A stretch of DNA of 64,000 nucleotides, taken from Sagittula stellata E-37 (GTDB lineage: Bacteria; Pseudomonadota; Alphaproteobacteria; Rhodobacterales; Rhodobacteraceae). The stretch spans positions 3,233,501 to 3,297,500 of the forward strand of contig NZ_CP155729.1 of NCBI RefSeq assembly GCF_039724765.1. The letters are read 5' to 3'. Below the pieces are notes generated by a model. The model searched no databases. It was not told the origin of the DNA and was given only the letters and a program-made list of their open reading frames with translations. Below, one piece after another: positions 7,168 through 40,106 of this stretch. Made by a program: the position numbers and the translations under genes. Each line of letters starts with the position of its first letter. Positions within the stretch are counted from its first letter, which is position 1.

Positions 7168-7179
7168 ATGGTATACCAA
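7168..7179. promoter_or_regulatory. GntR (UxuR/ExuR-type) operator, transketolase/ACAD divergent region
   Basis: ATGGTATACCAA, with the perfect core TGGTATACCA, lies between the acyl-CoA dehydrogenase pseudogene and the transketolase operon, 22 bases before the ATG at 7201. The same core recurs in four other divergent regions of this window. It matches the established operator type of FadR-class GntR regulators such as ExuR and UxuR. Confidence 0.7.
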
Positions 7180-7200
7180 AAGACGGACAAGGGAGGAGAC

Positions 7201-8049
7201 ATGTCCAGCGACACTCACGCAGGCTCCAACGTGAGCCTGGCGCGCCGCGCATGGGCGATCCGTCGCCACGCGCTGCGCATGGCCGAAGTGCAGGGACAGG
7301 GTTACATCGGGCAGGCGCTCGGCGTGGCGGACGTGTTGGCCACCAGCTATTTCCACGCTCTGACCTACGATCCAAAAGACCCCCATTGGGAAGGGCGCGA
7401 CCGTTTCTACCTGTCCATCGGCCACTATGCCATCGCGCTCTACGCGGCCCTGATCGAAGCGGGCATCCTTCCGGAGAACGAGATCGGCACCTACGGCATG
7501 GACGGTTCGCGCATGCCGATGTCGGGCATGGCTGCCTACACGCCGGGAATGGAGATCACGGGCGGCAGCCTCGGCCACGGTCTGGGCATCGCGGTGGGCG
7601 CCGCGTTCGGACTGAAGCGCAAGAAAAGCGCAGCCTTCGTCTACAACATGATGTCGGACGGGGAACTGGGCGAAGGGTCGACCTGGGAGGCGGTGATGGC
7701 CGCCAGCAGCCACCAGCTCGACAACCTGATCTGCATCGTCGACTTCAACGACCAGCAGGCCGATGGACCGACCACCGCCGCATTGGCCAAAGGAGACGAG
7801 GCACCGAAATGGGCGGCCTTCGGCTGGCACGCGCAGGAGGTGGACGGCAACGATCTGGACGCGCTCGTACAAGCCTTCGACACGGCCCGCGACCTTCCCG
7901 ATCCCCGGCCCCGCGTGATCGTCTGCAAGACCCAGATGTGCAAGGGCGTGCCCTTCCTCGAAGAGCGCGAGATCACCCATTTCGTTCGCATCGAGCCGTC
8001 CGAATGGTCCCGCGCCATCGCCCATCTCGACGAGCAGATGCCTGCCTGA
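7201..8049 (+). CDS. transketolase, N-terminal (thiamine-diphosphate) subunit
   Basis: This is the first half of a split transketolase, 282 residues, holding the ThDP pyrophosphate-binding domain. The cofactor motif runs from SDGELGEG (residues 152-159) to DFND (181-184), and the substrate-channel histidine segments GHYAIALYA and GGSLGHGLG are present. The partner at 8102 supplies the pyrimidine-binding half. Such pairs transfer two-carbon units between sugar phosphates; in sugar-catabolic islands they can be dedicated, for example to apulose-phosphate. The start at 7201 follows GGGAGGAGAC. The operator at 7168 suggests GntR control together with the rest of the island. Confidence 0.9.
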   Translation: MSSDTHAGSNVSLARRAWAIRRHALRMAEVQGQGYIGQALGVADVLATSYFHALTYDPKDPHWEGRDRFYLSIGHYAIALYAALIEAGILPENEIGTYGMDGSRMPMSGMAAYTPGMEITGGSLGHGLGIAVGAAFGLKRKKSAAFVYNMMSDGELGEGSTWEAVMAASSHQLDNLICIVDFNDQQADGPTTAALAKGDEAPKWAAFGWHAQEVDGNDLDALVQAFDTARDLPDPRPRVIVCKTQMCKGVPFLEEREITHFVRIEPSEWSRAIAHLDEQMPA

Positions 8050-8101
8050 CCCATGACTGCGGGCCGGTTTCATCCCGGCCCCCGTGCCCCGGAGAGACTC
8101 A

Positions 8102-9157
8102 ATGACCGAAGCCCCGACCGGCCCATTCAGCCGACGCAAGTCCAAGCATCAGCCACGTACGGCACCCGTCTCGGAGACCGGCGAACGGCTGACGACCTCC
8201 GCGATGATTGCCTCCCTCGATGCAGAGGGCCGCGAGACTGTCACCGCCCCTTTCGGCAAGGCACTCTGCGACATGGCGAAGACCCGGGACGACATCGTCG
8301 GCCTCACCGCCGACCTGTCGAAGTACACCGACTTGCACGTCTTTGCCAAAGCCTACCCCGACCGGTTCTACCAGATGGGCATGGCCGAGCAGGTGATGAT
8401 CTCGGCCGCCGCCGGGTTGGCGCGCGAAGGGTTCACCCCCTTCGCCACCACCTACGCGGTCTTCGCCTCCCGCAGGGCCTACGACTTCATCGTCATGGCC
8501 ATCGCCGAGGAGAACCTGCCGGTCAAGATCGTCTGCGCCCTGCCCGGCCTGACCACCGGCTACGGCCCCAGCCACCAGGCGACGGAGGATCTGGCGATTT
8601 TCCGCGGCATGCCCAATCTGACCATCGTCGATCCGTGCGACGCGACAGAGATCACCCAAGCCACACATGCCATCGCCGATCATCCGGGTCCGGTCTACAT
8701 GCGCCTGCTGCGCGGCGAGGTGCCGGATGTACTGGGCGAATACGGCTACCGTTTCGAACTGGGCAAGGCCAAGCTGATCCACAGCGGTCGCGACGTGCTG
8801 TTCATCTCGACCGGGTTCATGACCATGCGTGCCCTCGATGCCGCGAAGGCACTGAAGGCGGACGACACCGACTGCGCAGTCCTGCACGTCCCCACCATCA
8901 AGCCGCTCGACGTCGAGACAATCAAGACGGAGGCGGCAAAGACCGGGCGGCTCGTGGTGACGCTGGAGAACCACACCATCGTCGGCGGGCTCGGGGAAGC
9001 CGTGGCCGCGACGCTGATGAGGGCTGGCATCCATCCGGCCTTCGACAGTATCGCCCTGCCGGACGAGTTCCTCGACGCGGGTGCCCTGCCTACCCTGCAC
9101 GACCAGTACGGCCTGTCCGTCCGGGCCATCACGCAACGGGTCCGGGCGCGTCTGTGA
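8102..9157 (+). CDS. transketolase, C-terminal subunit
   Basis: The 351-residue partner of the preceding gene carries the pyrimidine-binding domain (FYQMGMAEQVMISAAAGLA holds the family glutamate that activates ThDP) and the C-terminal transketolase domain. It begins MTEAPTGPFSRRKSK, an arginine/lysine-rich leader before the conserved fold, from the ATG at 8102 with GGAGAG upstream. The two genes are 52 bases apart and surely co-transcribed. Neither half would be active alone. Confidence 0.9.
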   Translation: MTEAPTGPFSRRKSKHQPRTAPVSETGERLTTSAMIASLDAEGRETVTAPFGKALCDMAKTRDDIVGLTADLSKYTDLHVFAKAYPDRFYQMGMAEQVMISAAAGLAREGFTPFATTYAVFASRRAYDFIVMAIAEENLPVKIVCALPGLTTGYGPSHQATEDLAIFRGMPNLTIVDPCDATEITQATHAIADHPGPVYMRLLRGEVPDVLGEYGYRFELGKAKLIHSGRDVLFISTGFMTMRALDAAKALKADDTDCAVLHVPTIKPLDVETIKTEAAKTGRLVVTLENHTIVGGLGEAVAATLMRAGIHPAFDSIALPDEFLDAGALPTLHDQYGLSVRAITQRVRARL

Positions 9158-9235
9158 TGCCCTTCCACAACCTCTTCCGGCGAACTGGCGCGCCGCACCG
9201 GGCCGCCGCGCTCCTCCAGACATGGGAATTCCACG

Positions 9236-9988
9236 ATGCTCCTGAAAGACAAGACCGCCCTCATCACAGGTGCCGCCAGCCCGCGCGGGCTTGGCAAGGC
9301 CACTGCCAAGCTCTTTGCTGAGCACGGCGCCCGTGTCGCGATCCTCGACCTGGACGCCGGAGCGGCAGAGAGCGCTGCCGCCAATCTGCCCGGTTTGGGG
9401 CACATCGGTCTTGCTTGCGACGTCACCGACAAGGACGCCTGCGACACCGCCGCAGGGTCCGCCCTCGCAGCTTTCGGCCGGATCGACGTGCTGGTAAACA
9501 ACGCGGGCATCACCCAGCCGCTGAAACTGATGCAGATCGAGCCCGCCAACTACGATGCCGTGACCGACGTCAATTTGCGCGGCACGCTCTACATGAGCCA
9601 GACCGTGATCCCGCACATGCGCAAAGGCGGCAAGGGCGCTATCGTGAACATCTCTTCGGTCTCGGCGCAACGGGGCGGCGGCATCTTCGGCGGCCCGCAT
9701 TATTCGGCGGCGAAGGCGGGCATCCTCGGCCTGACCAAGGCCATGGCCCGCGAACTGGCCACCGACGGTATCCGTGCCAACGCGGTCTGCCCCGGCTTCA
9801 TCGCCACCGACATCACCGCCGGCAAGCTGACGCCGGAGATGATGGAACAGATCCTCGCCGGCATCCCCATGGGCCGCGCGGGCGCGGCTTCGGACGTGGC
9901 GGGCTGCTGTCTGTTTCTGGCTTCCGACCTGTCGGCCTATGTCACCGGCTCGGAGGTCGACGTGAACGGCGGTTCGCTCATCCACTGA
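9236..9988 (+). CDS. SDR-family oxidoreductase
   Basis: This is a 250-residue classical short-chain dehydrogenase. The nucleotide loop is TGAASPRGLGKATAK, LVNNAG marks the central strand, and the active site is SSVSAQ followed by YSAAKAG (Ser-Tyr-Lys). The C-terminus VNGGSLIH is typical. The gene follows the split transketolase by 78 bases and is the last of that operon. It probably oxidises or reduces a sugar, polyol or keto-acid intermediate of the island. The 3-oxoacyl-ACP reductase label often given to such proteins is unlikely here. The exact substrate is unknown. Confidence 0.85.
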   Translation: MLLKDKTALITGAASPRGLGKATAKLFAEHGARVAILDLDAGAAESAAANLPGLGHIGLACDVTDKDACDTAAGSALAAFGRIDVLVNNAGITQPLKLMQIEPANYDAVTDVNLRGTLYMSQTVIPHMRKGGKGAIVNISSVSAQRGGGIFGGPHYSAAKAGILGLTKAMARELATDGIRANAVCPGFIATDITAGKLTPEMMEQILAGIPMGRAGAASDVAGCCLFLASDLSAYVTGSEVDVNGGSLIH

Positions 9989-10154: not shown

Positions 10155-11000
10155 TCACTCTGCCGCGACGGTTTCCTGTTTCTGGGTGCCGAGGCCCTCG
10201 ATAAAGACCTCCATCACGTCACCCGGCTTCAGGAAGCGCTGGGGTTTCATGCCCATGCCCACGCCCGAAGGCGTGCCGGTGGCGATGATGTCACCCGGTT
10301 GCAGCTGCATGAAATTCGACATGTAGGCCACGATCTCGGCCACGCCGAAGATCATGTCGTCGGTGTTCGAATCCTGCACCGTCTCGCCGTTAAGCTTCAG
10401 CGACACTGCCAGCTTCTGAGGGTCCGGGATCTCGTCGGCGGTCACCAGCCACGGGCCGGTCGGACCGAAGGTCGGGGCCGACTTGCCCTTCATCCACGTG
10501 CCGCCGCGCTCGATCTGGAACGCGCGCTCGGACATGTCGTTGACGACGCAGTAGCCGGCCACGTGGGACAGCGCCTCCTCCTCCGAGATGTATGAGGCGG
10601 TCTTGCCGATCACCACGCCCAGTTCGACTTCCCAGTCCGACTTGACCGATCCGCGCGGGATGACCACCGGATCGAAAGGACCGGACAGCGCCGAGGTCGC
10701 CTTGTTGAAGATGATCGGCTCCTTCGGCGGTTCGGCGCCTGTCTCGGCCGCGTGCTTGGCATAGTTCAGACCGATGCAGAAGAAGTTCGGAACAGTGGCG
10801 AGGCAGGCGCCGATGCGGCCCGGGTTCTCGACCACCGGCAGGCTCGACACGTCCACCGACCGCAGCTTGTCCAGCGCCTCGATGGACACGCTTTCACCCG
10901 CGAAATCGCTGACATGGGCCGAGAGGTCGCGCACGCGGCCTTCGCCATCAAGCATACCGGGCTTTTCCTGGCCCGCCGGGCCATAGCGCAAGAGTTTCAT
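10155..11000 (-). CDS. fumarylacetoacetate-hydrolase-fold enzyme, 2,4-diketo-3-deoxy-L-fuconate hydrolase-like
   Basis: This 281-residue FAH-family protein often carries the label ureidoglycolate lyase. The metal-binding acids are in DWEVELGVVIG, the cap region has the conserved FFCIGLNYAKHA, and the C-terminus has ATGTPSGVGMGM. Members beginning MKLLRYGPAGQEKPG cluster with 2-keto-3-deoxy-L-fuconate dehydrogenase and hydrolyse 2,4-diketo-3-deoxy-L-fuconate to pyruvate and L-lactate. A KDF-dehydrogenase-like SDR is found at 18517, which supports that role. It lies directly downstream of the GntR gene on the same strand (59 bases), so the two are probably one transcript. Substrate not proven. 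Confidence 0.8.
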   Translation of the reverse strand: MKLLRYGPAGQEKPGMLDGEGRVRDLSAHVSDFAGESVSIEALDKLRSVDVSSLPVVENPGRIGACLATVPNFFCIGLNYAKHAAETGAEPPKEPIIFNKATSALSGPFDPVVIPRGSVKSDWEVELGVVIGKTASYISEEEALSHVAGYCVVNDMSERAFQIERGGTWMKGKSAPTFGPTGPWLVTADEIPDPQKLAVSLKLNGETVQDSNTDDMIFGVAEIVAYMSNFMQLQPGDIIATGTPSGVGMGMKPQRFLKPGDVMEVFIEGLGTQKQETVAAE

Positions 11001-11059: not shown

Positions 11060-11746
11060 TCAGGCCGGGGTGGCCGCAGCCGTCGGGTCGGCGGAACCGG
11101 TCCGTTCGGACTCGAAAAAGTCCACCACGTTGATCAGCAGGTGGTCGAGGTGCGCCCGCAGGTTTTGCTCAACCTCCGTGGCATCGCGGCTGCGCAGGCC
11201 GCGGACGATGGCCGAGTGCTGTTCCAGCACCCTCTCCCGGGAATCCTTTCGGCTGGCCGACAAGTACCGCGCCCGCCAGAGCCGCGCCAGCAGCGCGCGG
11301 TGCATCTCTGCCAGAACCGGGTTGCCCGCCGCCTCCGCGATGGCGCGGTGGAAGCTCATGTCGATTTCAAAGACTTCGAGCTTGTCGAGCTTGTCGTATT
11401 CGCGCTCCATCCGGGCCGCGACGTCGGTGATGTGGTCGATCTGAGCGTCCGACGCGCGTTCGCAAGCCAGACGGGCAGACAGCAATTCCAGCGCGGTCAT
11501 GACCTCGATGTTCTGCGCCACGTCTTCGAACGATGGCTGCGCCACGATGGGCGAGCGCGCGGGACGCAGGATCACGAGCCCTTCCTTGGCAAGGATTCGA
11601 ATCGCTTCACGCATGGGCGTGCGGCTGACACCGAGTTCGCCCGCATGATCACGTTCCTTGACCGCCGTACCTGGCGGCAGGTCGCCCCGCAGGATGTCCC
11701 TCCGCAGTCGATTCGCAATCTGTTCCGGCAAGGTCTCCTCGGCCAT
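11060..11746 (-). CDS. GntR-family regulator, FadR subfamily (FCD domain)
   Basis: The 228-residue protein has a GntR winged helix at residues about 5-75 (LRRDILRGDLPPGTAVKERD, then ELGVSRTPMREAIRIL) and an all-helical FCD ligand-binding domain (the FHRAIAEAAGN segment holds family metal/ligand residues). FadR-type GntR proteins repress sugar-acid and organic-acid genes and let go of DNA when they bind an intermediate. Two TGGTATACCA palindromes lie in the 274-base region between it and dctP, pointing to autoregulation and control of the TRAP operon. It is the only GntR gene in the window, so it is the best candidate for all matching operators. Confidence 0.9.
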   Translation of the reverse strand: MAEETLPEQIANRLRRDILRGDLPPGTAVKERDHAGELGVSRTPMREAIRILAKEGLVILRPARSPIVAQPSFEDVAQNIEVMTALELLSARLACERASDAQIDHITDVAARMEREYDKLDKLEVFEIDMSFHRAIAEAAGNPVLAEMHRALLARLWRARYLSASRKDSRERVLEQHSAIVRGLRSRDATEVEQNLRAHLDHLLINVVDFFESERTGSADPTAAATPA

Positions 11747-11825: not shown

Positions 11826-11839
11826 TTTGGTATACCAAA
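11826..11839. promoter_or_regulatory. GntR operator 1, gntR/dctP region
   Basis: TTTGGTATACCAAA is a perfect 14-base palindrome, 79 bases upstream of the gntR start. It matches the ExuR/UxuR-type consensus and the sites at 7168, 23050 and 31666. Confidence 0.75.
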
Positions 11840-11884
11840 AATCCTTGCCTGTCGACATGGGTTTGGTTAGCGTACCCTCACAGG

Positions 11885-11894
11885 TGGTATACCA
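11885..11894. promoter_or_regulatory. GntR operator 2, gntR/dctP region
   Basis: TGGTATACCA is the second copy of the core palindrome, 58-59 bases centre to centre from operator 1 and 126 bases before the dctP start. Paired sites in one divergent region could allow looping or separate control of the two promoters. Confidence 0.65.
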
Positions 11895-12020: not shown

Positions 12021-13031
12021 ATGAAGAAACTTCTGACGACGGCTGCGGCCGTTGCCATTGTTGCGACCGGCGCATCGGCCCAGGACGTGACACTGCGCAT
12101 CCAGACGCACTACGCAACCGAGCATCCTTCGGGCCTTCTGGCAGCCCAGTTCGCCGACGACGTGGAAACCATGTCCGAAGGCTCCATCGACATCGAGATG
12201 TTCTACAGTTCGTCCGTCGTCGCCACGACCGAGACCTTCGATGCCGCGATCAACGGCATCCTCGACTGCGACATGACCGGCGGCGCGTACCAGACCGGCA
12301 AGAACCCGGCCTTCCAGTTCGTCGGTGACATCATGGGCGGCTACGACACGCCGTGGCAGCAGATCTCGTGGCTGTATTACGGTGGCGGCTACGATGCCGC
12401 GCAGGAACTGTACAATTCGCAGGGCATGCAGCTGGTCGGCTGGTGGCTATACGGTCAGGAATCGCTCTCTTCGTCCCAGCCGCTGGCCGGTCCCGACGAC
12501 CTGAAGGGCTGGAAGTTCCGTTCGCCCCCTGGGCTCGAAACCGAGATCTTCGAACAGATGGGTGCTCAACCGATCGTGATGGATTTCACCGAGGTCTTCA
12601 CCGCGCTGGAAACCGGCATCATCGACGGTGCTGACGCATCCGGCCTGGCAAACAACGTGGGCCTCGGTCTCTATGACCTCGTGGACCACGCGACCTACCC
12701 GGGCTTCCACTCCATGCCGTCCGACCACCTAGCCTGCAACAAGGGCGTGTGGGACAGCCTGACCGAGGCGCAACGCCGGATCATCGACACCGCGATGCAG
12801 AAGCTGACGCTGCACACCGCCCTGTCGAACGAGAAGAAGAACGCCGAAGCGGCGGCCATGCTGACCGAGAAGGGCGTGACCCTGCACGACTGGTCGGCCG
12901 AAGACCGCGCCAGTTTCCGCAAGGCCGCGCAGGTCGCGTGGGATGACTGGGCCGGTCGTTCGCCCGAGGCCGCCGCGCTGGTGGAAAGCCATCGCAGCTA
13001 CCTCAAGGATCTCGGTCTGCTCGCGAACTAA
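12021..13031 (+). CDS. dctP: TRAP transporter substrate-binding protein (DctP family)
   Basis: This is the periplasmic binding protein of a TRAP importer, 336 residues. The signal peptide MKKLLTTAAAVAIVATGASA has a likely cut before QDVTLRIQ. The DctP fold is recognised from LRIQTHYATEHPSG, the GAYQTGKNPAFQF region and the conserved KGWKFRSPPGLETEIFEQMGA segment that includes the family carboxylate-binding arginine. The context suggests a sugar acid or other hydroxy-carboxylate as ligand. The start at 12021 follows GGGAGGAGACA. A terminator-like hairpin separates it from the membrane genes, which would keep binding protein in excess. Confidence 0.92.
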   Translation: MKKLLTTAAAVAIVATGASAQDVTLRIQTHYATEHPSGLLAAQFADDVETMSEGSIDIEMFYSSSVVATTETFDAAINGILDCDMTGGAYQTGKNPAFQFVGDIMGGYDTPWQQISWLYYGGGYDAAQELYNSQGMQLVGWWLYGQESLSSSQPLAGPDDLKGWKFRSPPGLETEIFEQMGAQPIVMDFTEVFTALETGIIDGADASGLANNVGLGLYDLVDHATYPGFHSMPSDHLACNKGVWDSLTEAQRRIIDTAMQKLTLHTALSNEKKNAEAAAMLTEKGVTLHDWSAEDRASFRKAAQVAWDDWAGRSPEAAALVESHRSYLKDLGLLAN

Positions 13032-13057
13032 GACACACATCCGTCCGATGGACAGCG

Positions 13058-13090
13058 ACGGCGGGCTCTTTCCCGGGGCCCGCCGTTTTT
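13058..13090 (+). terminator. intra-operon terminator/attenuator after dctP
   Basis: ACGGCGGGC pairs perfectly with GCCCGCCGT, followed by TTTT. It lies 26 bases after the dctP stop and 43 before dctQ. Partial termination here would give more binding protein than permease. Confidence 0.75.
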
Positions 13091-13133
13091 CACTCCAAGA
13101 ACACCAAAAAACGGGGCCACGGGGAGGCACATC

Positions 13134-13943
13134 ATGAACGGCGAGAGCGTCTGGCTCGGGTCAATGCGGGGACCGATCCGCTTGGCCATGTTCATATTCA
13201 TCGGTCTGTCACTGGCAATTTACGCCTGGTTCCTGATCGCACAATACACCACGGCCGATCCGATCGGCATGCACGAGATGATCCGCCCCGGAGGCCGGCC
13301 TCTGGTGCAGGCCCTTCTCATCAGCATTGCACTCGCGCTGCTGTTCAGCTCGCTTTATCTGTCGGATTTCAAGGGTGTGATCGAGGTGGAGCGCACCGGG
13401 CCGTTCGACATCTTCAGCCTCGTGCTCGGGCGGCTTTCGATGATAGCCACGGCCTTCATCGTCGTCACAATGGGCTTCGAAGTCGTTGCGCGTTACATCT
13501 TCAATGGCGGCACGCTCTGGGCCAACGAGCTGTCGCTCTGGATCGCGGCGTTCGTGTTCCTGATGGCTGGCCTCTACGCCATGCAACAGCGCAGCCACAT
13601 CCGCATCTACGTGATCTACGACATGATGCCCCGCTGGATGCAGAAGGCGTCGGACTGCGTGTCCGTCTTCCTGATCTGGGTCTTCGTGGGCTGCCTGATC
13701 TGGGGCGGTTACAACGATGCGACCCGGCGGTTGATGAACCTCGAAGGCTACGGCTCCGCCTGGGATCCGCCGATCCCCGGCACGGTCAAGACCGCGGTCC
13801 TGGTAATCGGGCTGGCGGTTGCGCTGCAGGCATTGTCCAACCTGATCGCGGACTGGAACAAGGCCCCCGAACACCATTCCGCCGACGACATCGACGAACA
13901 CGAAATCGAGAACATCCGCAAAACGCTCGAAGGGGACAAGTAA
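13134..13943 (+). CDS. dctQ: TRAP transporter small permease (DctQ family)
   Basis: The 269-residue protein is longer than the usual 160-200 because of an N-terminal extension with two extra hydrophobic stretches (residues about 15-40 and 57-77) before the core DctQ four-helix region (about 100-250). The core has the family signature ARYIFNGGTLWANELSLWIA. The tail is acidic and charged. It pairs with the large permease, whose ATG follows its stop directly (TAAATG). It takes part in sodium-driven uptake with DctP and DctM. Confidence 0.88.
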   Translation: MNGESVWLGSMRGPIRLAMFIFIGLSLAIYAWFLIAQYTTADPIGMHEMIRPGGRPLVQALLISIALALLFSSLYLSDFKGVIEVERTGPFDIFSLVLGRLSMIATAFIVVTMGFEVVARYIFNGGTLWANELSLWIAAFVFLMAGLYAMQQRSHIRIYVIYDMMPRWMQKASDCVSVFLIWVFVGCLIWGGYNDATRRLMNLEGYGSAWDPPIPGTVKTAVLVIGLAVALQALSNLIADWNKAPEHHSADDIDEHEIENIRKTLEGDK

Positions 13944-17290: not shown

Positions 17291-17297
17291 GGGATTT

Positions 17298-17369
17298 CGC
17301 CCCGGCTGCGCCGGGGCGATCCGCGGGGGCTCCGCCCCCGCACCCCCGAGGTATTTTTTCCAAGATGAA
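17298..17369 (+). repeat. dispersed Rhodobacterales-type intergenic element, copy 1
   Basis: Two perfect hairpins, CGCCCCGGC-TGC-GCCGGGGCG (17298-17318) and GCGGGGGC-TCC-GCCCCCGC (17323-17341), are followed by the tail CCCCCGAGGTATTTTT and CCAAGATGAA (17343-17369). The same build recurs at 37643, 53058 and 60236. It follows the UxaA stop by 7 bases and may act as a transcript end. Confidence 0.7.
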
Positions 17370-17425
17370 ACCAAGGGCCGTGCCTTGTTCGGCCTCCCTG
17401 GCAGATGGGACGAGAGGAAGATGCG

Positions 17426-18487: not shown

Positions 18488-18516
18488 GCCCCAGGGGACC
18501 AAACGGGAGGACACCC

Positions 18517-19239: not shown

Positions 19240-19244
19240 TGTAG

Positions 19245-19261
19245 GGTGCAGATTCTGCACC
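19245..19261. promoter_or_regulatory. perfect 8-1-8 palindrome before the DMT permease gene
   Basis: GGTGCAGA-T-TCTGCACC lies 5 bases after the SDR stop and 21 before the permease ATG. It could be an operator for a separate promoter or a small mRNA hairpin near the ribosome-binding site. It differs from the TGGTATACCA motif used elsewhere. Confidence 0.4.
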
Positions 19262-19282
19262 TTCAATGCGAGGGGACAGAGG

Positions 19283-30743: not shown

Positions 30744-30842
30744 TTCCATTCCTCCCATGTCGTTGATGTCCTACGTTTTCGGGCCGGCGGGCGGGCGCTT
30801 TTGCGTCAGCAAACAGTGCCGCCTCGCCGGTCCGCCCGTGCG

Positions 30843-31665: not shown

Positions 31666-31677
31666 ATGGTATACCAT
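31666..31677. promoter_or_regulatory. GntR operator, SDR/LysE divergent region
   Basis: ATGGTATACCAT is a perfect 12-base palindrome, 62 bases before the SDR start and about 90 before the preferred LysE start. It can control both operons. Confidence 0.75.
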
Positions 31678-31765: not shown

Positions 31766-32365
31766 ATGCTGACATTCGCCGCCGCCGTCTTCTTTCTGAT
31801 CGTGACGCCCGGCCCTGGCGTTCTCTCGACCGCCGGGCTGGGCGCGGCCTACGGATTCGCGGCCGGGCTGCGCTATGTCGGCGGGCTGTTCATCGGGACG
31901 AACCTCGTGGCGCTGGCGGTGATCTCCGGCGTGGCGGCCATCGTGTTGTCGGTGCCGGTGGTCCGCTGGGTGCTTATGGCGGCCTCCATCGGCTACCTGC
32001 TGTACCTCGCCTCCCGCATCGCCTTCGCGGGGTCCCGCCTCGCCTTCATCGAGGCCAAGGCCCCGCCCGCCTTGGGCTCCGGCATCCTGCTGCAGGCGAT
32101 CAATCCGAAGGCCTATGCCGTCAACACCACGCTCTTCGCGGGCTTCCCCTTCGCCCCCGACAACCTCGTATACGAAACTGTGGCCAAGCTGCTGATCGCC
32201 AATGCGATCTGGATTCCGATCCACCTCGGCTGGCTCTTCGCCGGCGCGTCCCTGCACCGACTCAACCTGTCCGACCGCAACCAGCGGTCCATCAACGTCG
32301 CGATGGCAGCCTCCATGCTGCTCGTCGTGGCCCTTGCCCTCTATTCCGGCCTGAAGAATGCCTGA
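31766..32365 (+). CDS. LysE/RhtB-family exporter
   Basis: The product (199 residues from this start) is a LysE-type membrane transporter with the N-terminal signature FLIVTPGPGVLSTAGLGAAYG and six predicted helices (AINPKAYAVNTTLFAGF marks the middle). The family exports amino acids or related small molecules. The exact start is uncertain. ATG 31766 gives the usual family N-terminus but has a weak ribosome-binding site. In-frame ATGs at 31724 and 31688 would add 14 or 26 residues. It overlaps the next gene by 8 bases, so it heads the operon running to 36820 or beyond. Confidence 0.78.
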   Translation: MLTFAAAVFFLIVTPGPGVLSTAGLGAAYGFAAGLRYVGGLFIGTNLVALAVISGVAAIVLSVPVVRWVLMAASIGYLLYLASRIAFAGSRLAFIEAKAPPALGSGILLQAINPKAYAVNTTLFAGFPFAPDNLVYETVAKLLIANAIWIPIHLGWLFAGASLHRLNLSDRNQRSINVAMAASMLLVVALALYSGLKNA

Positions 32366-33740
32366 CACCTTGCACACAAACGCCCTCTCCCGTCTCACCG
32401 CGCTGCTCGGCGACCGGCTCGTCACGTCTGACGCCGACCGCCGCCTGCATGGCCAGAACGAGACCTACTACCCCAACACCCCGCCCGACGCCGTGGCCTA
32501 CCCGGAGACGACCGCCGAGGTCTCGGAAATCGTGAAGATCTGCGCCGACACGGGCACGCCCGTCACGCCCTACGGCGCCGCCAGCTCGCTCGAAGGCCAG
32601 CATCTTGCCGTCCAGGGCGGCATCAGCCTGGACTTCGCGCGCATGAACCGGCTGCTCTCGGTCTCGCCCGAAGACCTGCTCTGCACCGCGCAACCGGGCC
32701 TGACCCGCAAGCGCCTGAACGAAGACCTGCGCGACACCGGCCTATTCTTCTCGGTCGATCCCGGCGCCGATGCCTCGCTCGGCGGCATGGCCGCCACCCG
32801 CGCCTCCGGCACCACTGCCGTGCGCTACGGCACGATCCGCGAGAACATCCTCGCTCTGGAGGCGGTGATGGCCGACGGCACGATCGTCCGCACCGGGTCG
32901 GAGGCGCGCAAGTCCGCCACCGGCTACGACCTGACGCACCTGCTGATCGGATCAGAAGGCACGCTGGGCATCATCACCGAACTGACGCTGCGGCTGCACG
33001 GCCTGCCAGAAGCCACCGCCGCCGCGACCTGCCGCTTCCCTTCCATAGAAGATGCGGTGAACTGCGTGATCCTGACGATCCAGTCGGGCCTGCCCATGGC
33101 GCGGATCGAACTGCTGGACCACATGATGGTGCGCGGTTTCAACCGATACGCCCAGGCCGACCTGCCGGAAGAGCCGCACCTCTTCCTCGAATTCCACGGC
33201 TCCGCGGCCGGCGTCGCCGAGCAGTCCGCAGCCTTCCGCGAGATCGCCGCCGACTTCGGCGCCTCGGGCTGGAAAGAGGCGGTGAAGGCGGAGGACCGCA
33301 ATGCGCTCTGGGCCATGCGCCACAGCGCGCATTACGCCTCTGCCGCGCTTGGAGAGGGCCGCCACATCTGGCCCACCGACACCTGCGTGCCGATCTCGAA
33401 ACTGGCCGAGGCGGTGACCTGGGCACAGACCCGCGCCGTGGAATACGGGCTGACGGCGACCATCGTCGGCCACGTCGGCGACGGCAACTTCCACGTGGGA
33501 CTCTCCGTCGACCCCGAAGACGCCGCAGAAATGGCGCGCGCCCACGATTACACCCACGCGCTGGGAGAGATGGCCCTGAAGCTGCGCGGCACGGTCAGCG
33601 GCGAACACGGCATCGGCATCGGCAAACAGGACTTCATGGTCCGTGAACACGGCTCTGCCGTGGCCGTCATGCGCGCGATCAAACAGGCGCTCGACCCCGC
33701 GGGCATCCTGAACCCCGGCAAGTTGCTCCCGCCTGCCTGA
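32358..33740 (+). CDS. FAD-linked hydroxyacid oxidase (GlcD/D-lactate dehydrogenase family)
   Basis: The 460-residue flavoprotein has an FAD-binding PCMH domain (PYGAASSLEGQHLAVQGGIS, GADASLGGMAATRASGTTAVRYG, GSEGTLGIITELTLRL) and the C-terminal FAD-oxidase domain with metal/substrate histidines in GHVGDGNFHVGL and GTVSGEHGIGIGKQ. Enzymes of this group oxidise D-lactate, glycolate or 2-hydroxyglutarate with a respiratory acceptor. Lactate or glycolate are the expected small products of diketo-acid or aldol cleavage in this island, so a clean-up role is likely. It overlaps the LysE gene by 8 bases. Confidence 0.88.
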   Translation: MPDTLHTNALSRLTALLGDRLVTSDADRRLHGQNETYYPNTPPDAVAYPETTAEVSEIVKICADTGTPVTPYGAASSLEGQHLAVQGGISLDFARMNRLLSVSPEDLLCTAQPGLTRKRLNEDLRDTGLFFSVDPGADASLGGMAATRASGTTAVRYGTIRENILALEAVMADGTIVRTGSEARKSATGYDLTHLLIGSEGTLGIITELTLRLHGLPEATAAATCRFPSIEDAVNCVILTIQSGLPMARIELLDHMMVRGFNRYAQADLPEEPHLFLEFHGSAAGVAEQSAAFREIAADFGASGWKEAVKAEDRNALWAMRHSAHYASAALGEGRHIWPTDTCVPISKLAEAVTWAQTRAVEYGLTATIVGHVGDGNFHVGLSVDPEDAAEMARAHDYTHALGEMALKLRGTVSGEHGIGIGKQDFMVREHGSAVAVMRAIKQALDPAGILNPGKLLPPA

Positions 33741-33751
33741 CATGCGACACC

Positions 33752-33805
33752 CAGAGTTTTCGGACGAAAACTCTGCCCCTTCAGGACTTTTCGACGAAAA
33801 GTCCT
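33752..33805 (+). repeat. two tandem perfect hairpins inside the operon
   Basis: CAGAGTTTTC-GGAC-GAAAACTCTG (33752-33775) and AGGACTTTTC-GAC-GAAAAGTCCT (33783-33805) fill the 85-base spacer between the FAD oxidase and FAH genes. Each is a 10-bp perfect stem with the same TTTTC/GAAAA centre and differs only in the outer bases. They may slow RNA decay, attenuate, or be a small repetitive element. Confidence 0.75.
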
Positions 33806-33825
33806 CTGCCACGGAAAGACGACAG

Positions 33826-34950
33826 ATGACACTGACAAACCCCGATCCCAAAGGCACCTTCCTCGCCCGCGTCCTGCGCCCTGGCATGGGCCCCTGCATC
33901 GCGCGCCTCGACGGCGACACGCTGGTGGACATCACCTCGAAGACTGCGCCGACGATGCGCGACCTGCTCGAACTCGACGACCCGCTGGCCCATGTCCGCG
34001 CGGCGGACGGCGAACGCTTCGCCACCCTCGCCGACCTCGGCCCCGACGGCCCGGCGCTGCTCGCGCCCTGCGACCTGCAGGTGGTCAAGGCCTCCGGCGT
34101 CACCTTCGCGCAGTCCATGGTCGAGCGCGTGATCGAGGAACAGGCCGCCGGCGACCCCGACCGCGCGGAGGCAATCCGCACAAGGGTCGGGCGGATCATC
34201 GGCGACAGCCTCGCGGGCCTCGTGCCCGGGTCCGAGAAAGCGGCGGAGGTCAAGAAGGTCCTGCAGGCCGAGGGCCTCTGGTCCCAGTACCTCGAGGTCG
34301 GCATCGGGCCGGACGCCGAGGTCTTCACCAAATGCCCCACCCTCGCCGCCGTGGGCCATGGCGCCGATGTGGGGCTCCACCCCATGTCGCGCTGGAACAA
34401 CCCCGAACCGGAGGTGGTGCTGGCCGTCACCTCGAAAGGCGACATCGTCGGCGCGACGCTCGGCAACGACGTCAACCTGCGCGACGTGGAGGGCCGCTCC
34501 GCCCTGCTTCTGGGCAAGGCCAAGGACAACAACGCCTCCGCGTCGGTCGGGCCCTTCCTGCGGCTCTTCGACGAGACCTACGGCATGGCGGACGTCGAAT
34601 CCGCCGAACTGACCCTGACCGTCAAGGGCGAGGACGGCTACACGCTCAACGGCCGATCCTCTATGTCGAAGATCTCGCGCCCGCCCGCCTCCATCGTCGG
34701 GCAGACCATCGGCGGGCATCATCAGTACCCGGACGGTTTCTTCCTCTACCTCGGCACGCTCTTCGCGCCGACCGAGGACCGCGACACGCAGGGCCAGGGC
34801 TTCACCCACAAGGTCGGCGACGTGGTGACCATTGCCGAACCGAAGCTGGGGGCGCTGACCAACACCGTGCGGCTGTCAACCGACTGCCCGCCGTGGACCT
34901 TCGGCGTGGCCGCCCTGATGCGCAACCTCGCACAAAGGGGGCTTCTGTGA
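33826..34950 (+). CDS. FAH-fold enzyme, 2-keto-3-deoxy-pentonate dehydratase-like
   Basis: At 374 residues this FAH-family protein is longer than ordinary hydrolases. It has the pattern of 2-keto-3-deoxy-arabonate dehydratases (KdaD/AraD1-type): KASGVTFAQSMVER, NNPEPEVVLAVTSKG with the metal acids, GNDVNLRDVEGRSALLLGKAKDNNAS, and the C-terminal GGHHQYPDGFFLYLGTLFAPTEDRD. Such enzymes remove water from 2-keto-3-deoxy-pentonates to give 2-oxoglutarate semialdehyde. No semialdehyde dehydrogenase is seen in the window, so another hydrolase or lyase role is possible. The start at 33826 has GGAAAG upstream; an open extension runs through the hairpins and is not coding. Its stop overlaps the kinase start (GTGA). 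Confidence 0.8.
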   Translation: MTLTNPDPKGTFLARVLRPGMGPCIARLDGDTLVDITSKTAPTMRDLLELDDPLAHVRAADGERFATLADLGPDGPALLAPCDLQVVKASGVTFAQSMVERVIEEQAAGDPDRAEAIRTRVGRIIGDSLAGLVPGSEKAAEVKKVLQAEGLWSQYLEVGIGPDAEVFTKCPTLAAVGHGADVGLHPMSRWNNPEPEVVLAVTSKGDIVGATLGNDVNLRDVEGRSALLLGKAKDNNASASVGPFLRLFDETYGMADVESAELTLTVKGEDGYTLNGRSSMSKISRPPASIVGQTIGGHHQYPDGFFLYLGTLFAPTEDRDTQGQGFTHKVGDVVTIAEPKLGALTNTVRLSTDCPPWTFGVAALMRNLAQRGLL

Positions 34951-35861
34951 ACTTCCTCTCCATCGGAGAAATCATGGTCGAACTGGCCCCGGCGGGCGAA
35001 GGGCTGCTGCGGCAGGGCTTTGCCGGGGACACCTTCAACACGGCGTGGTACGCCCGCCGCCTGCTGCCGCCGGGCTGGACGGTGAGCTATGGCACGGTGA
35101 TCGGCGAGGACGCGGTCTCCGACGACATGGCCCGCTTCATCGCGGGCGAAGGCCTGTCGACCGATGCCCTGGCCCGCCACCCCGACCGCACCGTCGGTCT
35201 TTACATGATCTCGCTGAAGGACGGCGAGCGCAGCTTTTCCTACTGGCGCGGGCAGTCGGCGGCAAAAACGCTGGCGGACGATCCGGTACGGCTGGCGGAC
35301 ATGCTGAAGGGCCGCGACACCATCCATTTCTCCGGTATCACGCTGGCGATCCTGCCGTCCGACGCACGCCGCGCCTTCTGCGACGCGCTCGCCACCGCAC
35401 GGTCAGACGGCGCACACGTCAGCTTCGACACCAATCTCAGGCCCCGCCTTTGGGAAAGCCCGGACGCCATGCGTGACGGCCTGACGCTCGGCGCCTCCGT
35501 CGCCGACACCGTGCTGCCCTCCTTCGACGAGGAACAGACCGTCTTCGACGACACGACGCCCGAGGACACCATCGCGCGCTATGCCAACGGCGGCGCCACC
35601 TGCGTCGCGGTCAAGAACGGCGGCGCGGCGGTGACCGCCTGGGCCGCCTCCGAAGGCAGTGCCGAGATCGCCCCGCCCCGCGTCGCGCAGGTCGTGGACA
35701 GTACGGCGGCGGGCGACAGCTTTGCCGCCGGGTTCCTCTGCGCCCGGGCCGAAGGGGCGTCTGCGGCCGAAGCGGCCCACCGCGCGGCGGACCTCGCCTC
35801 GCGCGTTATCCAACATCGCGGCGCCCTTGCGCCCGCCATCTTCACGGGAGACGAGACATGA
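34947..35861 (+). CDS. PfkB-family sugar kinase, 2-keto-3-deoxygluconate kinase-like
   Basis: The 304-residue kinase starts with GTG at 34947, overlapping the stop of the FAH gene. It has the N-terminal FLSIGEIMVELAP, the glycine-rich AGDTFNTAWYARRL, and the C-terminal PfkB signature DSTAAGDSFAAGF with catalytic aspartate. KDG kinases share the GEIMVEL and FDTNLRPRLW segments. It would phosphorylate a 2-keto-3-deoxy acid or related sugar and open a phosphorylated branch beside the oxidative steps. The ATGA overlap with the next gene shows tight coupling. Confidence 0.85.
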   Translation: MNFLSIGEIMVELAPAGEGLLRQGFAGDTFNTAWYARRLLPPGWTVSYGTVIGEDAVSDDMARFIAGEGLSTDALARHPDRTVGLYMISLKDGERSFSYWRGQSAAKTLADDPVRLADMLKGRDTIHFSGITLAILPSDARRAFCDALATARSDGAHVSFDTNLRPRLWESPDAMRDGLTLGASVADTVLPSFDEEQTVFDDTTPEDTIARYANGGATCVAVKNGGAAVTAWAASEGSAEIAPPRVAQVVDSTAAGDSFAAGFLCARAEGASAAEAAHRAADLASRVIQHRGALAPAIFTGDET

Positions 35862-36820
35862 ACATCCTCATCATCGGCGGCGCAGGCGTCGTCGGCAAGA
35901 AACTCGCACGCGCGCTTGCGGCAAAAGAAACGCTGCGCGGCAAGGAGATCACCAAACTGACGCTGGCCGACATCGGCGACGCCGAGACGATCGACGCCCC
36001 CTTCCCGGTCGAGACCGCGCGCTGCGACATCACCGATCCGGCCTCCGTCGCCAACGTGATCACCGGGGACACCGACGTGATCTACCTGCTGGCTGCCGTG
36101 GTTTCCGCCCATGCCGAGGAAGACTTCGACTTCGGCTACAAGGTCAACATGTTCGGCACGCTGAACGTGCTGGAGCGCTGCCGTGCGCTGGGGACGAAGC
36201 CCGTGCTGGTCTTCACCTCCTCCATCGCCGTTTTCGGCGGCGAGGTGCCGCAGCCGTTCCACGACCATTCCGCGCTCAACCCGCAGATCAGCTACGGCGC
36301 GCAGAAGGCCATCGGCGAGCTGCTGGTCAACGACTACACCCGGCGCGGCTTTGTCGACGGGCGCGGGTTCCGGCTGCCGACGATCTCCGTCCGGCCCGGA
36401 AAGGCCAACCGGGCGGCCTCGTCCTTCATGTCCTCCATCTTCCGCGAGCCGCTGCAGGGCCAGGAAGCGGTCTGTCCGGTCGACGAGGCGTTCCCGCATT
36501 TCTACCTGTCGCCGCGGCAGTGCGCGCTGAACCTCGTGACGGGCGCCGAGATCCCGGCGGAAGACCTCGGGCTCTGCCCGACCATGACAATGCCGGGCCG
36601 GGTCTGGACGATCCGCCAGATGATCGACGCGATGACCGCCGTCGCCGGGCCCGAGCCGGCCAAGCTGATCCGCTGGGAGGAACAGCCCGAGATCGCGCAT
36701 ATCCTGAAGGGCTGGCGACTGGACGTCCGCCCGCAGAAAGCCGAGCGCCTGGGCCTGAAGGCAGACGACAGTTTCGAGGACAACATCCGTTACTTCCTGG
36801 AAGAGGACATCGCGCGCTGA
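35858..36820 (+). CDS. denD: NAD-dependent epimerase/dehydratase, D-erythronate dehydrogenase-like
   Basis: The 320-residue extended SDR matches DenD, which oxidises D-erythronate at C2 to 2-oxo-tetronate. It has the Rossmann loop IIGGAGVVGKKLARAL, Ser in SSIAVFGG, the active pair Y..K in SYGAQKAIGELLVNDYTRRG, and the family VRPGKANRAASSF and HFYLSPR segments. In known DenD clusters an isomerase (OtnI), kinase (OtnK) and aldolase (OtnC) follow; none of those is seen here, so the true substrate may be a different acid. It overlaps the kinase by 4 bases. Confidence 0.82.
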   Translation: MNILIIGGAGVVGKKLARALAAKETLRGKEITKLTLADIGDAETIDAPFPVETARCDITDPASVANVITGDTDVIYLLAAVVSAHAEEDFDFGYKVNMFGTLNVLERCRALGTKPVLVFTSSIAVFGGEVPQPFHDHSALNPQISYGAQKAIGELLVNDYTRRGFVDGRGFRLPTISVRPGKANRAASSFMSSIFREPLQGQEAVCPVDEAFPHFYLSPRQCALNLVTGAEIPAEDLGLCPTMTMPGRVWTIRQMIDAMTAVAGPEPAKLIRWEEQPEIAHILKGWRLDVRPQKAERLGLKADDSFEDNIRYFLEEDIAR

Positions 36821-36877
36821 CCCGGCGCGCGCCCCCGACCGGTCCAGAGATCCGATACACCCCGAAAGGAGTGCTGC

Positions 36878-37633
36878 ATGCCCGATTTTGCCATCTACCC
36901 GAGCCTGAAAGGCAAGTCCGTCCTCGTCACAGGAGGCGCCTCCGGCATCGGCGCCGAGATCGTGAAGGCTTTTGCCGCGCAGGGCGCGCGCGTGGGCTTC
37001 GTCGATTTCGACGAAAAGACCGCCGAGGCGCTTGTCGCGGAGACCGAGGGCGAACTGGCCTTCGAACCCTGCGACCTGCGCGACATCGACCAGCTCCGCG
37101 CGGCATTCGCCCGGATCGCCGACCGCATCGGCGCGCCGACAGTGCTGGTCAACAACGCCGCCCGCGACGACCGCCACGGCTGGGAGGACGTCACGCCCGA
37201 ATACTGGGACGAACGCTTTGCCACCAACTTCCGGCACATGTTCTTCGCCATCCAGGCGGTTGTGCCCGGCATGATCGAGGCCGGTGGCGGGTCGATCGTC
37301 AACATGGGGTCGAATTCCTGGTGGGAGAAATCCACCGGCATGCCCGCCTACACCGCCGCCAAGTCCGCGGTGCACGGGCTGACGCGCTCCTCGGCCAAGG
37401 AGTTCGGCAAGCACCGCATCCGGGTGAACGCGGTGGTGCCGGGCTGGGTCATGACGGAGCGCCAGAAAGAGCTCTGGACCACGCCGGAGAAGCTGGAGGA
37501 GCATCTGAAGGGCCAGTGCCTGCCAGACCTGATCGAGCCGGTCTACCTCGCCCGCATGGTGCTGTTTCTCGCCTCGGACGATTCCGCCATGTGCTCGGCC
37601 AGCAATTTCTTCGTCGAGGCCGGATCGGTCTGA
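36878..37633 (+). CDS. SDR-family sugar 1-dehydrogenase-like
   Basis: This 251-residue SDR resembles the D-xylose/L-arabinose/galactose 1-dehydrogenase group. It has TGGASGIGAEIVKAF, LVNNAARDDRHGWEDVTPEYWD, the FRHMFFAIQAVVPGM and MGSNSWWEKSTGMPAYTAAKSAV active-site segment, and the C-terminal CSASNFFVEAGSV. These enzymes make the aldonolactone from the free sugar, the entry step of non-phosphorylative pathways. It follows denD by 57 bases with GAAAGGAG upstream, and is the last gene of the operon, ahead of an intergenic repeat element. Confidence 0.83.
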   Translation: MPDFAIYPSLKGKSVLVTGGASGIGAEIVKAFAAQGARVGFVDFDEKTAEALVAETEGELAFEPCDLRDIDQLRAAFARIADRIGAPTVLVNNAARDDRHGWEDVTPEYWDERFATNFRHMFFAIQAVVPGMIEAGGGSIVNMGSNSWWEKSTGMPAYTAAKSAVHGLTRSSAKEFGKHRIRVNAVVPGWVMTERQKELWTTPEKLEEHLKGQCLPDLIEPVYLARMVLFLASDDSAMCSASNFFVEAGSV

Positions 37634-37926: not shown

Positions 37927-38865
37927 TCAGTTGACCGGGGTGACGAGATCCTTGCCTTCGAGGAAGGCGGTGACGTTGGCCAGTTGCAGCTCGGCCATGG
38001 CGCGGCGGGTTTCCACCGTGCCGGACCCCTGGTGCGGCTGCAGGTGCACGTTTTTCAGCTTGCGCCAGCGCGGGTCGATGTCGGGTTCGTTCAGGAAGAC
38101 ATCGACCGCCGCGCCGCGAAGCCGGCGCTTTTCCAGCGCATCGAGCAGCGCGCCCTCGTCCACCGTCGTTCCGCGCGAGATATTGACCACAACGCCTTCG
38201 GACCCCAGCGCGTCCAGCGCCTCGGGACCGACGAAATTGCGGGTCTCCTCGCCGCCCACCAGCGCGATCACCAGCCAGTCCACCGCGCCCGCCAGCGAGA
38301 CGACGTCGGCGTGGTAGGTCCAGCCCGGCGTCTCCTTTTCGGAGCGGGCGAAGTAGTGGATGTCCATCTTGAAGGCCGCCAGACGGTCCGCGATCTCGCG
38401 CCCGATGCGGCCCAGGCCCACGATGCCGACGGTGCCGCCCGACATCTTGCGGTTCAGCGGCAGCGATTGCTGCGCCCATCCGCCGGAGATGGTGAGCGCA
38501 TGACCGCGCACCATGTCGCGCGAGAAGGCCAGCATCATGCCCACGGCCAGGTCTGCCACATCGTCGTTCAGCACGTCGGGCGTGTTCGTCACCGCGACAC
38601 TGCGGGCCGCGGCCGCGTCCACGTCGATGGCGTCGTAGCCCACGCCGAAGTTGGCGATCAACCCGAGGTTGGGCAGCGCTTCCATCGCTTCGGCGCCGAA
38701 GGGGGCATGACCCTTGAAGGCCACCGCCCGCACCTCGGTCCGCAGCGTGGTGTCCATGCCGGCGATGTCCTCGGGGGACCCCACGAAGGCTGCCGCATGG
38801 GCGCCGGCGAGACGCCCGCGCTCTTCCTCGGTGAATGCGTTTCCGACGATCAGCAGATTGGTCAT
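37927..38865 (-). CDS. D-isomer-specific 2-hydroxyacid dehydrogenase
   Basis: The 312-residue enzyme has the NAD loop GIVGLGRIGREIA and the catalytic trio in NISRGTTVDEGAL (Arg), DVFLNEP (Glu) and LQPHQGSGTVETR (His). It is probably a glyoxylate/hydroxypyruvate or other 2-keto acid reductase. It overlaps the aminotransferase gene by 4 bases (ATGA) and is translated after it, suggesting that the two enzymes handle the same 2-keto acid. Confidence 0.88.
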   Translation of the reverse strand: MTNLLIVGNAFTEEERGRLAGAHAAAFVGSPEDIAGMDTTLRTEVRAVAFKGHAPFGAEAMEALPNLGLIANFGVGYDAIDVDAAAARSVAVTNTPDVLNDDVADLAVGMMLAFSRDMVRGHALTISGGWAQQSLPLNRKMSGGTVGIVGLGRIGREIADRLAAFKMDIHYFARSEKETPGWTYHADVVSLAGAVDWLVIALVGGEETRNFVGPEALDALGSEGVVVNISRGTTVDEGALLDALEKRRLRGAAVDVFLNEPDIDPRWRKLKNVHLQPHQGSGTVETRRAMAELQLANVTAFLEGKDLVTPVN

Positions 38866-40055
38866 ATGGTCGTTTCCTTTCTGGCTTCCAGCAGTCCGCG
38901 AATGCGCCGCAGGGCCTCTTGTATATTCTCGGTCGAATTGGCGTAGGAGAAGCGCAGGTAGCCCTCTCCGTACGCGCCGAAGGAAGTGCCGGCGACCGTG
39001 GCCACGCCTCCTTCCTCAAGGAACAGCGTCTGCGCCTCCATGGCGGACAGCCCTGTCCCCTCGATGTTGGGGAAGGCGTAGAACGCGCCCGCCGCATCGG
39101 CGCAGCGCACCCCCGGCAGCGCGTTCAGCCCGTCGACGATCACCTTGCGGCGGGCATCGAAGGCGTCGTTCATCGCGGCGACCCCGTCCTGCGGGCCTTC
39201 CAGCGCGGCGATGCCGGCGAACTGCGTCGCGGCGTTCACGCACGAGTGGTCGTTGACGCAGAGCCGCGTGACATGCTCCACCAGTTGTTCCGGCCAGACC
39301 GCGTAGCCCAGCCGCCAGCCGGTCATTGCGTAGCGTTTGGACCAGCCGTCCAGCACGATCAGCCGGTCGCGGATCTCCGGGTATTGCAGCAGCGAGACGT
39401 GTTCGCGCCCGCCATAGAGCATCGTCGAATAGATCTCGTCCGACAGGATCGCGACGTGGGGGTGTTCTGCCAGACCTGCGACCAGCTTGTCGACCTCTTC
39501 CTTCGGCGTGACCCCGCCGGTGGGGTTCGCGGGCGAGTTGATGATGATCAGCCGGGTCGCGGGGGTGATCTGGGCCAGCACCTCCTCGGCGGAGAAGGCG
39601 AAGCCGTTCTCCTCCTTCAGGGCCATGGGGACGGCCTTGGCGCCGCTGTAGCGGATCACCGACTCGTAGATCGGGAAGCCGGGGTTTGGATAGATGATCT
39701 CCGCCCCCGGTTCGCCGAACATCAGGACGGCAAAGAACATGGTGGGCTTGCCGCCCGGCACCACGACCACGTGGTCCGGGTTCACCTCGACGCCATGGCG
39801 GACGTTCAGGTCGGCGGCCACGGCCGAGCGGAGCTGCGGCAGGCCGTTCGCCGGCGTGTAGCCGTGGGCGCCGTCATGCAACGCCTTCACCGCCGCCTCG
39901 ACGATGTGGTCGGGCGTGCGGAAGTCGGGCTGGCCGATCCCGAGGTTGATGATGTCCCGGCCCTGCGCCGCCAGCGCACCCGCGCGGGCCAGCACCACGA
40001 AAGCCGATTCAGTTCCCAGCCGCGACATCCCCGCGGCAAGCGTCAGTTGCGCCAT
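38862..40055 (-). CDS. class I/II PLP-dependent aminotransferase
   Basis: The 397-residue protein is an aspartate-aminotransferase-fold enzyme, with NLGIGQPDFRTP at the N-terminus, the segment NSPANPTGGVTPKEE, and PLP lysine K240 in GWSKRYAMTGWRLGY. Amino donor and acceptor are not evident. The ATG at 40055 follows GGGGGAGGACAC; another ATG 18 bases upstream lacks a site. Its promoter region is shared with the ABC importer and holds a GGTATACC core. Confidence 0.86.
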   Translation of the reverse strand: MAQLTLAAGMSRLGTESAFVVLARAGALAAQGRDIINLGIGQPDFRTPDHIVEAAVKALHDGAHGYTPANGLPQLRSAVAADLNVRHGVEVNPDHVVVVPGGKPTMFFAVLMFGEPGAEIIYPNPGFPIYESVIRYSGAKAVPMALKEENGFAFSAEEVLAQITPATRLIIINSPANPTGGVTPKEEVDKLVAGLAEHPHVAILSDEIYSTMLYGGREHVSLLQYPEIRDRLIVLDGWSKRYAMTGWRLGYAVWPEQLVEHVTRLCVNDHSCVNAATQFAGIAALEGPQDGVAAMNDAFDARRKVIVDGLNALPGVRCADAAGAFYAFPNIEGTGLSAMEAQTLFLEEGGVATVAGTSFGAYGEGYLRFSYANSTENIQEALRRIRGLLEARKETTI

Positions 40056-40096
40056 GTGTCCTCCCCCGGCCATCGCCTCGCGGCCGTTCGGAAATC

Positions 40097-40106
40097 TGGT
40101 ATACCG
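40097..40106. promoter_or_regulatory. GntR operator-like site, aminotransferase/ABC importer region
   Basis: TGGTATACCG keeps 9 of 10 bases of the TGGTATACCA core, 42 bases before the aminotransferase start. A weaker match CGGTATACAC lies at 40339-40348, just before the importer. Both could link the importer to the GntR regulon with lower affinity. Confidence 0.5.

Follow-up and report, generated by a model that had tools for sequence, protein, structure and literature searches.

The 64,000-bp window of the Sagittula stellata E-37 genome analysed here (contig NZ_CP155729.1, coordinates 3,233,501 to 3,297,500) contains an island of uptake and sugar-acid genes organised around divergently read operons, and within it gntR (11060–11746), which encodes a GntR-type regulator with an FCD domain (Table 1). 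The 10-bp palindrome TGGTATACCA recurs in the spacers between these operons and, from its distribution in this and related genomes, we regard it as very probable that it is the operator of this GntR, which would thereby control one sugar-acid regulon.

An exact scan of the whole window finds TGGTATACCA at 7169, 11828, 11885, 23054 and 31667, and TGGTATACCG, a 9/10 match that reads CGGTATACCA on the minus strand, at 40097. These are the positions given in a preliminary description of this DNA, which also placed them between divergent operons and singled out an 18-base perfect palindrome as the best copy; all six sites do lie in spacers between oppositely read genes, a short way before start codons (Table 1), and the 18-base palindrome is at 23050–23067 around the core 23054–23063. 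Allowing up to two mismatches there are 12 matches in the window against 4.6 expected, a number reached in none of 100 shuffles, and among 320 palindromic 10-mers of equal base composition TGGTATACCA occurs five times whereas the other 319 occur at most once each (mean 0.02). The genome-wide scan proposed at the time gives 8 exact copies in 5.29 Mb, 5 of them within one 25-kb stretch, compared with about 1.3 expected by chance from base composition and 1 for a reversed-pattern control. A chance origin of the palindrome as a whole is rejected by the window shuffles, the genome count and this expectation.

Co-occurrence of the palindrome and gntR

We compared 101 genomes, taking orthologues of the GntR at a cut-off of 190 bits (at least 46% identity) set by eye. 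The 17 genomes with an orthologue carry 3–10 exact copies each (mean 5.5), whereas the 84 without one carry 0–7 (mean 0.74), five of them having at least three; the difference has a Mann-Whitney p of 1.2e-11, or 4.6e-10 against genomes of the same family only, neither value being corrected for relatedness. The reversed control does not differ between the two groups (means of 1.35 and 1.52). An exact copy lies upstream of gntR, i.e. in an autoregulatory position, in 15 of the 17 orthologue loci.

A second collection, the best 80 of at least 588 named loci and overlapping in part with the 101-genome set, has a copy within 350 bp of gntR in 47/61 loci at 50% identity or more, in 3/13 at 45–49%, and in 0/6 below. 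In the 1.14 Mb covered by the 61 loci at 50% identity or more, the palindrome occurs 126 times; the reversed control occurs once there, and the 319 other palindromes 0.64 times on average. Nine named loci have the variant CGGTATACCA no more than 350 bp from gntR, and in eight of these it is paired with an exact copy and is the nearer of the two to gntR. None of the 13 distant homologues with a compared locus has an exact copy, but three further listed homologues do. Read as an operator on the basis of this co-occurrence, TGGT-AT-ACCA would conform to the FadR-subfamily consensus, a palindromic TKGT/ACMA (PMC4494728, in excerpt, as are the other papers cited here) with a GT-AC spacing of 2–3.

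Core, edge and distal sites of the predicted regulon

Retention was counted in the 17 genomes within 300 bp upstream of orthologous starts, the denominator being genomes with the gene above the chosen E-value cut, and in the named loci for genes at least 55% identical (any identity for gntR) whose start and preceding 330 bp lie inside the locus; some of the surveyed palindromes fall inside over-long genes predicted by a simple gene caller. The promoter of the ilvD-type dehydratase has a copy in 15/16 genomes and 12/15 named loci, that of the gluconate-5-dehydrogenase-like SDR in 12/15 genomes, and that of the aminotransferase in 7/14 genomes exactly, to which this genome and its sister, G002, add one-mismatch copies, and in 3/4 named loci. 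All 49 dctP starts found in the named loci have a copy upstream, as do 50 of 80 gntR genes and the single LysE gene (1/1), whereas the operon-internal FAH and galactarate-type dehydratase genes have none (0/47 and 0/41). The palindrome is thus kept at orthologous promoters and absent before operon-internal genes, a pattern from which transketolase and uxuA depart. The earlier proposal of a single GntR regulon is borne out in so far as copy number follows the orthologue, gntR itself has the site in an autoregulatory position, and the same operons retain it. As judged from this retention, the core of the predicted regulon is formed by the TRAP/gntR and dehydratase promoters, with SDR/LysE a core member in the 17 genomes and the aminotransferase a frequent one.

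Three more exact copies are found elsewhere in the genome. One, at C1:128027, precedes a branched-chain-type ilvD (TIGR00110 over cut-off), another, at C1:3449713, precedes uxuA (TIGR00695 over cut-off), and the third, at C1:1363060, precedes a sugar-type ABC ATPase/permease pair that reaches no equivalog cut-off. They make it likely that the regulon extends beyond 33 kb, and of the "33-kb GntR regulon" described previously the single regulon marked by the palindrome stands and the confinement probably does not. The transketolase operon had also been included; its exact site at 7169 is present, but among 10 genomes with the gene only this one and the sister have it. Similarly, the uxuA site is limited to this species and the sister among 11 genomes with the gene. 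The transketolase and uxuA sites look like recent additions, which suggests a stable regulon core with recently arrived targets at its edge. It is also conceivable, although we do not favour it, that the core sites are real and the sites at transketolase, uxuA and the branched-chain-type ilvD are chance or neutral copies, which would be compatible with the regulon proposed here. The narrow distribution of the first two and the roughly 1.3 chance copies expected genome-wide are in keeping with this, and for the branched-chain-type ilvD only the sister's copy was seen, no systematic check across relatives having been made; however, all three sites are in spacers, with the start codon of a carbohydrate or dehydratase gene following 22–70 bp downstream, and both uxuA and ilvD exceed curated cut-offs.

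The left neighbour of the 7169 site (6084–7375, minus strand) is an acyl-CoA dehydrogenase gene split over two frames, and caution is needed with that spacer. In the sister the predicted acyl-CoA dehydrogenase gene extends to about 110 bp from the corresponding operator. Further left (4218–5952, minus strand), CoA-ligase-like pieces of the acetate-CoA ligase type are spread over separate frames that overlap, and these pieces are perhaps also decayed.

One-mismatch sites were considered as a source of wider targets and dropped for want of any excess over the control; two were considered, the one at 40097, which relatives retain, and one at G000:C1:4272010 (L291:3011), where a xylulokinase gene (TIGR01312 over cut-off), a candidate extra target, follows 55 bp after the same variant CGGTATACCA.

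The regulon had been described as two gene blocks separated by unrelated genes. The single regulon remains very probable, and the split corresponds to a 3.7-kb segment (24881–28617; a 3-hydroxybutyrate-dehydrogenase-like SDR, a patatin-like protein and one more gene) that has no counterpart at that place in the sister, where the flanks are 267 bp apart. The two operators are 8.6 kb apart here compared with 2.4 kb in G028 and 4.7 kb in G042, and the two blocks are best read as one that was interrupted in this lineage.

Table 1. Proposed operators and promoter, and genes of the predicted regulon in the window.
Feature	Coordinates	Strand	Basis and remarks
Operator upstream of split transketolase	7169..7178		Exact match; only here and in sister G002
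Split transketolase (N and C parts) and SDR	7201..9988	+	Family matches; transketolase ATG 7201
FAH-fold hydrolase downstream of gntR	10155..11000	-	Best match 2,4-didehydro-3-deoxy-L-rhamnonate hydrolase, 395 bits (cut-off 500)
gntR, FCD-domain (VanR-like) GntR regulator, proposed repressor	11060..11746	-	PF00392 and PF07729 over cut-off; start 11746
Operator 1, between gntR start and proposed -35 of dctP	11828..11837		Exact match; spacer alignment
Proposed dctP promoter, TTGCCT-17-TAGCGT	11845..11873	+	By eye; conserved in most of the 14 spacers aligned; consensus promoter scan negative
Operator 2, just downstream of proposed dctP -10	11885..11894		Exact match; spacer alignment; pair spacing
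TRAP transporter dctP-dctQ-dctM	12021..15539	+	Family matches; dctQ by weak match and position; dctP start 12021
Galactarate-dehydratase-like protein, GFO/IDH/MocA dehydrogenase, SDR, EamA transporter	15797..20191	+	Family matches; same direction as TRAP
IlvD/Edd-family sugar-acid dehydratase and SDR	20373..22989	-	Family match; closest solved structures 5oyn, 7m3k; dehydratase start 22989
Operator, ilvD-type dehydratase/exported protein spacer	23054..23063		Core of 18-base palindrome; 15/16 genomes
Exported protein (without family match) and RraA-like protein	23154..24377	+	Family search; exported-protein ATG 23154
PhyH-type dioxygenase, tartronate-semialdehyde-reductase-like dehydrogenase, gluconate-5-dehydrogenase-like SDR	28620..31604	-	Family matches; SDR start 31604
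Operator, SDR/LysE spacer	31667..31676		Exact match; 12/15 genomes
LysE-like exporter, GlcD-like oxidase, FAH-like protein, KDG-kinase-like PfkB, D-erythronate dehydrogenase (over cut-off), xylose-dehydrogenase-like SDR	31766..37633	+	Family matches; lysE ATG 31766
Aminotransferase and 2-hydroxyacid dehydrogenase	37927..40055	-	Family matches; aminotransferase start 40055
Operator variant CGGTATACCA (minus strand), aminotransferase/ABC importer spacer	40097..40106		Exact palindrome at same gene in 7/14 genomes; same variant in sister
Sugar-type ABC importer: binding protein, permease, ATPase	40390..43376	+	Family matches; control from 40097 less certain

Paired palindromes at dctP and a proposed mechanism

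Alignment of 14 gntR–dctP spacers, from which the dctP promoter was read by eye, gives the consensus TTTGGTATACCAAA, a -35-like TTGmyT, 17 bases, TAGCGT, about 11 bases, and ATGGTATACCAT; L050, L058 and L062 do not have an exact second operator, and L056 and L059 do not have an intact first one. The bases flanking the core are, by inspection, mostly T/A at the first site and A/T at the second. Operator pairs (up to one mismatch each) are present in 42/49 dctP loci and are spaced 54–58 bp apart in 40 of the 42, the other two spacings being 38 and 111 bp. That two operators bracket the dctP promoter is a new observation of this analysis. Of 11 aligned sequences of the ilvD-type promoter, 8 have TTGCAT directly adjoining the palindrome, and 10 of 12 SDR/LysE spacers retain a TTGACA on the LysE strand. 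These positions relative to the putative promoter elements would fit a repressor. Operator 1, just upstream of the proposed dctP -35, could suit activation, but operator 2 just downstream of the proposed -10 occupies a repressing position, and two relatives that have been studied, DgoR and Atu1419, both act by repression (PMC7674646, PMC7797058), such that a role for the GntR as activator at some targets is unlikely.

The target functions comprise TRAP and ABC uptake, IlvD/Edd and galactarate-type sugar-acid dehydratases, several dehydrogenases, a GlcD-like oxidase, a 2-hydroxyacid dehydrogenase, FAH-type proteins, a KDG-kinase-like protein and a D-erythronate dehydrogenase, the last over cut-off; they suggest that sugar acids of four to six carbons are broken down oxidatively, and the closest solved structure to the TRAP protein is 4pe3. 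In G027 and G009 the palindrome lies 70 and 28 bp, respectively, before a threonate/erythronate-type gene set, matched by gene order and length only. In the G042 set (L077:12895-16470) three of four proteins, 3-oxo-tetronate kinase, 3-oxo-tetronate 4-phosphate decarboxylase and L-threonate dehydrogenase, exceed their cut-offs. G005 has a similar set, and in both G042 and G005 the set is upstream of the aminotransferase site and in the same direction.

We propose that a GntR dimer would bind directly over each palindrome, and that the ligand-free protein most likely represses the mostly divergent promoters for sugar-acid breakdown and uptake, the latter involving the TRAP transporter and perhaps the sugar ABC importer. 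The repressor would come off when its FCD pocket takes up a sugar acid or the 2-keto-3-deoxy derivative of one, presumably together with a metal ion; this ligand class is suggested by the target genes and by analogy with DgoR. Uptake and gntR itself may be the most tightly controlled, since two operators bracket the dctP promoter. As a more speculative extension, to which we attach rather less than even weight, the bracketing operators may act as one functional unit, with the promoter clamped or bent by a pair of GntR dimers that perhaps form a single tetramer, as Atu1419 does. The 54–58 bp correspond to about 5.1–5.5 helical turns and are kept in some forty Rhodobacterales-type loci, a tighter spacing than the 109–190 bp between the Atu1419 operators.

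The regulator and its relatives

The GntR matches PF00392 (55.6 bits) and PF07729 (100 bits), both over cut-off, and thus has the winged helix-turn-helix and FCD domains of the FadR subfamily. It is the product of the only FCD-type GntR gene in the window among 27 in the genome, other GntR subfamilies not having been searched for, which agrees with the single FadR-class gene reported in the preliminary description. Among the matches listed for an AlphaFold2 model (pLDDT 88.9), AlkR/VanR has the best TM-score (0.82), and by E-value an unassigned Brucella GntR, 7u5q, is first with Atu1419 (6za3) next; the closest folds are VanR-type, the helix count being 6 or 7. E31 and R42, invariant in the 17 orthologues, align with Glu34 and Arg45 of Atu1419, the latter of which reads the key guanine (PMC7797058). 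D129, H133, H177 and H199 are likewise invariant and appear to fit the FCD metal-site pattern.

The motif had been assigned to the ExuR/UxuR type, which is correct for its GT-AC spacing of 2, as in UxuR, but does not extend to ExuR, where the spacing is 3 (PMC4494728), or to the protein: it scores 27.3 bits against a curated cut-off of 442 for UxuR, and 29.8 against 396 for ExuR. NanR, the second-best NCBIfam match, is also rejected (91.5 bits, cut-off 260); its half-site TGGTAT is shared, but NanR binds direct repeats of TGGTATAW (PMC4494728) and the half-sites here are inverted. The GntR is a VanR-like FCD protein and neither a UxuR nor an ExuR orthologue.

Atu1419, a VanR-type FCD regulator of Agrobacterium fabrum, binds the 10-mer ATGTATACAT and resembles the window GntR in its FCD fold, in a 10-base palindrome with a GT-AT-AC centre, and in having more than one palindrome in the spacer of its own gene, but its outer bases are AT/AT rather than TG/CA, its palindromes are 190 or 109 bp apart, and it controls hydroxycinnamate genes (PMC7797058). 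DgoR, the FadR-family D-galactonate repressor of E. coli, is a GntR/FCD sugar-acid repressor with inverted repeats over its promoter, and it takes up D-galactonate together with a metal ion in its FCD pocket (PMC7674646); however, its GT-AC spacing is 3 (PMC4494728) and it controls its own operon. E. coli UxuR also controls sugar-acid genes and one distal site here precedes uxuA, but that palindrome is restricted to two genomes and the window protein is far below the UxuR model cut-off. A UxuR, which may or may not be the same protein, is named in Rhodobacteraceae bins (PMC5507952). PMC5343134 names the GntR-family regulators BioR, FadR, GlcC, HutC, HypR, LldR, NagQ and PdhR.

Several observations weigh against assigning the palindrome to this GntR. 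Two of the 17 orthologues have no copy at gntR, the SDR has one in 1/5 named loci and the 2-hydroxyacid dehydrogenase in 3/13, and scans for consensus sigma-70 promoters at five spacers found nothing. One-mismatch copies are not in excess genome-wide (33 sites with at most one mismatch compared with 47 for the control), so a single such match means little. Published residue–base correlations indicate that proline at helix-turn-helix position 40 avoids G/C at the second half-site base (PMC4494728); by our own alignment to FadR, P44 of the GntR is at this position, and the second base of the motif is G. Finally, G092 has 7 copies without a GntR orthologue, and in G058, G041, G017, G092 and G016 the palindrome adjoins non-orthologous FCD GntR genes (29–33% identity), so that it does not by itself name its regulator and would be an operator type common to several regulators of the class. 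With 27 FCD genes in the genome, another FCD regulator, or several, could in principle bind the palindrome with the window GntR a mere neighbour, but the other 26 FCD loci are free of exact and one-mismatch copies over about 1.5 kb on either side, and copy number across genomes follows the window GntR orthologue, making this very improbable. Copies in genomes without an orthologue were viewed at 13 of 22 sites of seven genomes (G016, G017, G032, G041, G058, G075 and G092). The loci that have TGGTATACCA beside a non-orthologous FCD GntR gene (L211, L212, L213, L218 and L221) contain other neighbouring genes.

The operator logic and protein family are already known (PMC4494728), the method and kind of system are familiar, and the degree of surprise is moderate. 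No published regulon of this GntR was recognised in literature searches, which did not cover RegPrecise or paper supplements, and a text search for TGGTATACCA returned, by title, nothing on bacterial regulation. The analysis provides a predicted switch and a first target list, including the TRAP transporter, for a widespread sugar-acid gene island of Rhodobacterales-type bacteria, and the palindrome gives a ready operator probe. Outside the regulon, the right part of the window contains very long minus-strand genes (44634–49322, 49370–51142 and 54132–59954), with predicted products of up to 1562 residues.

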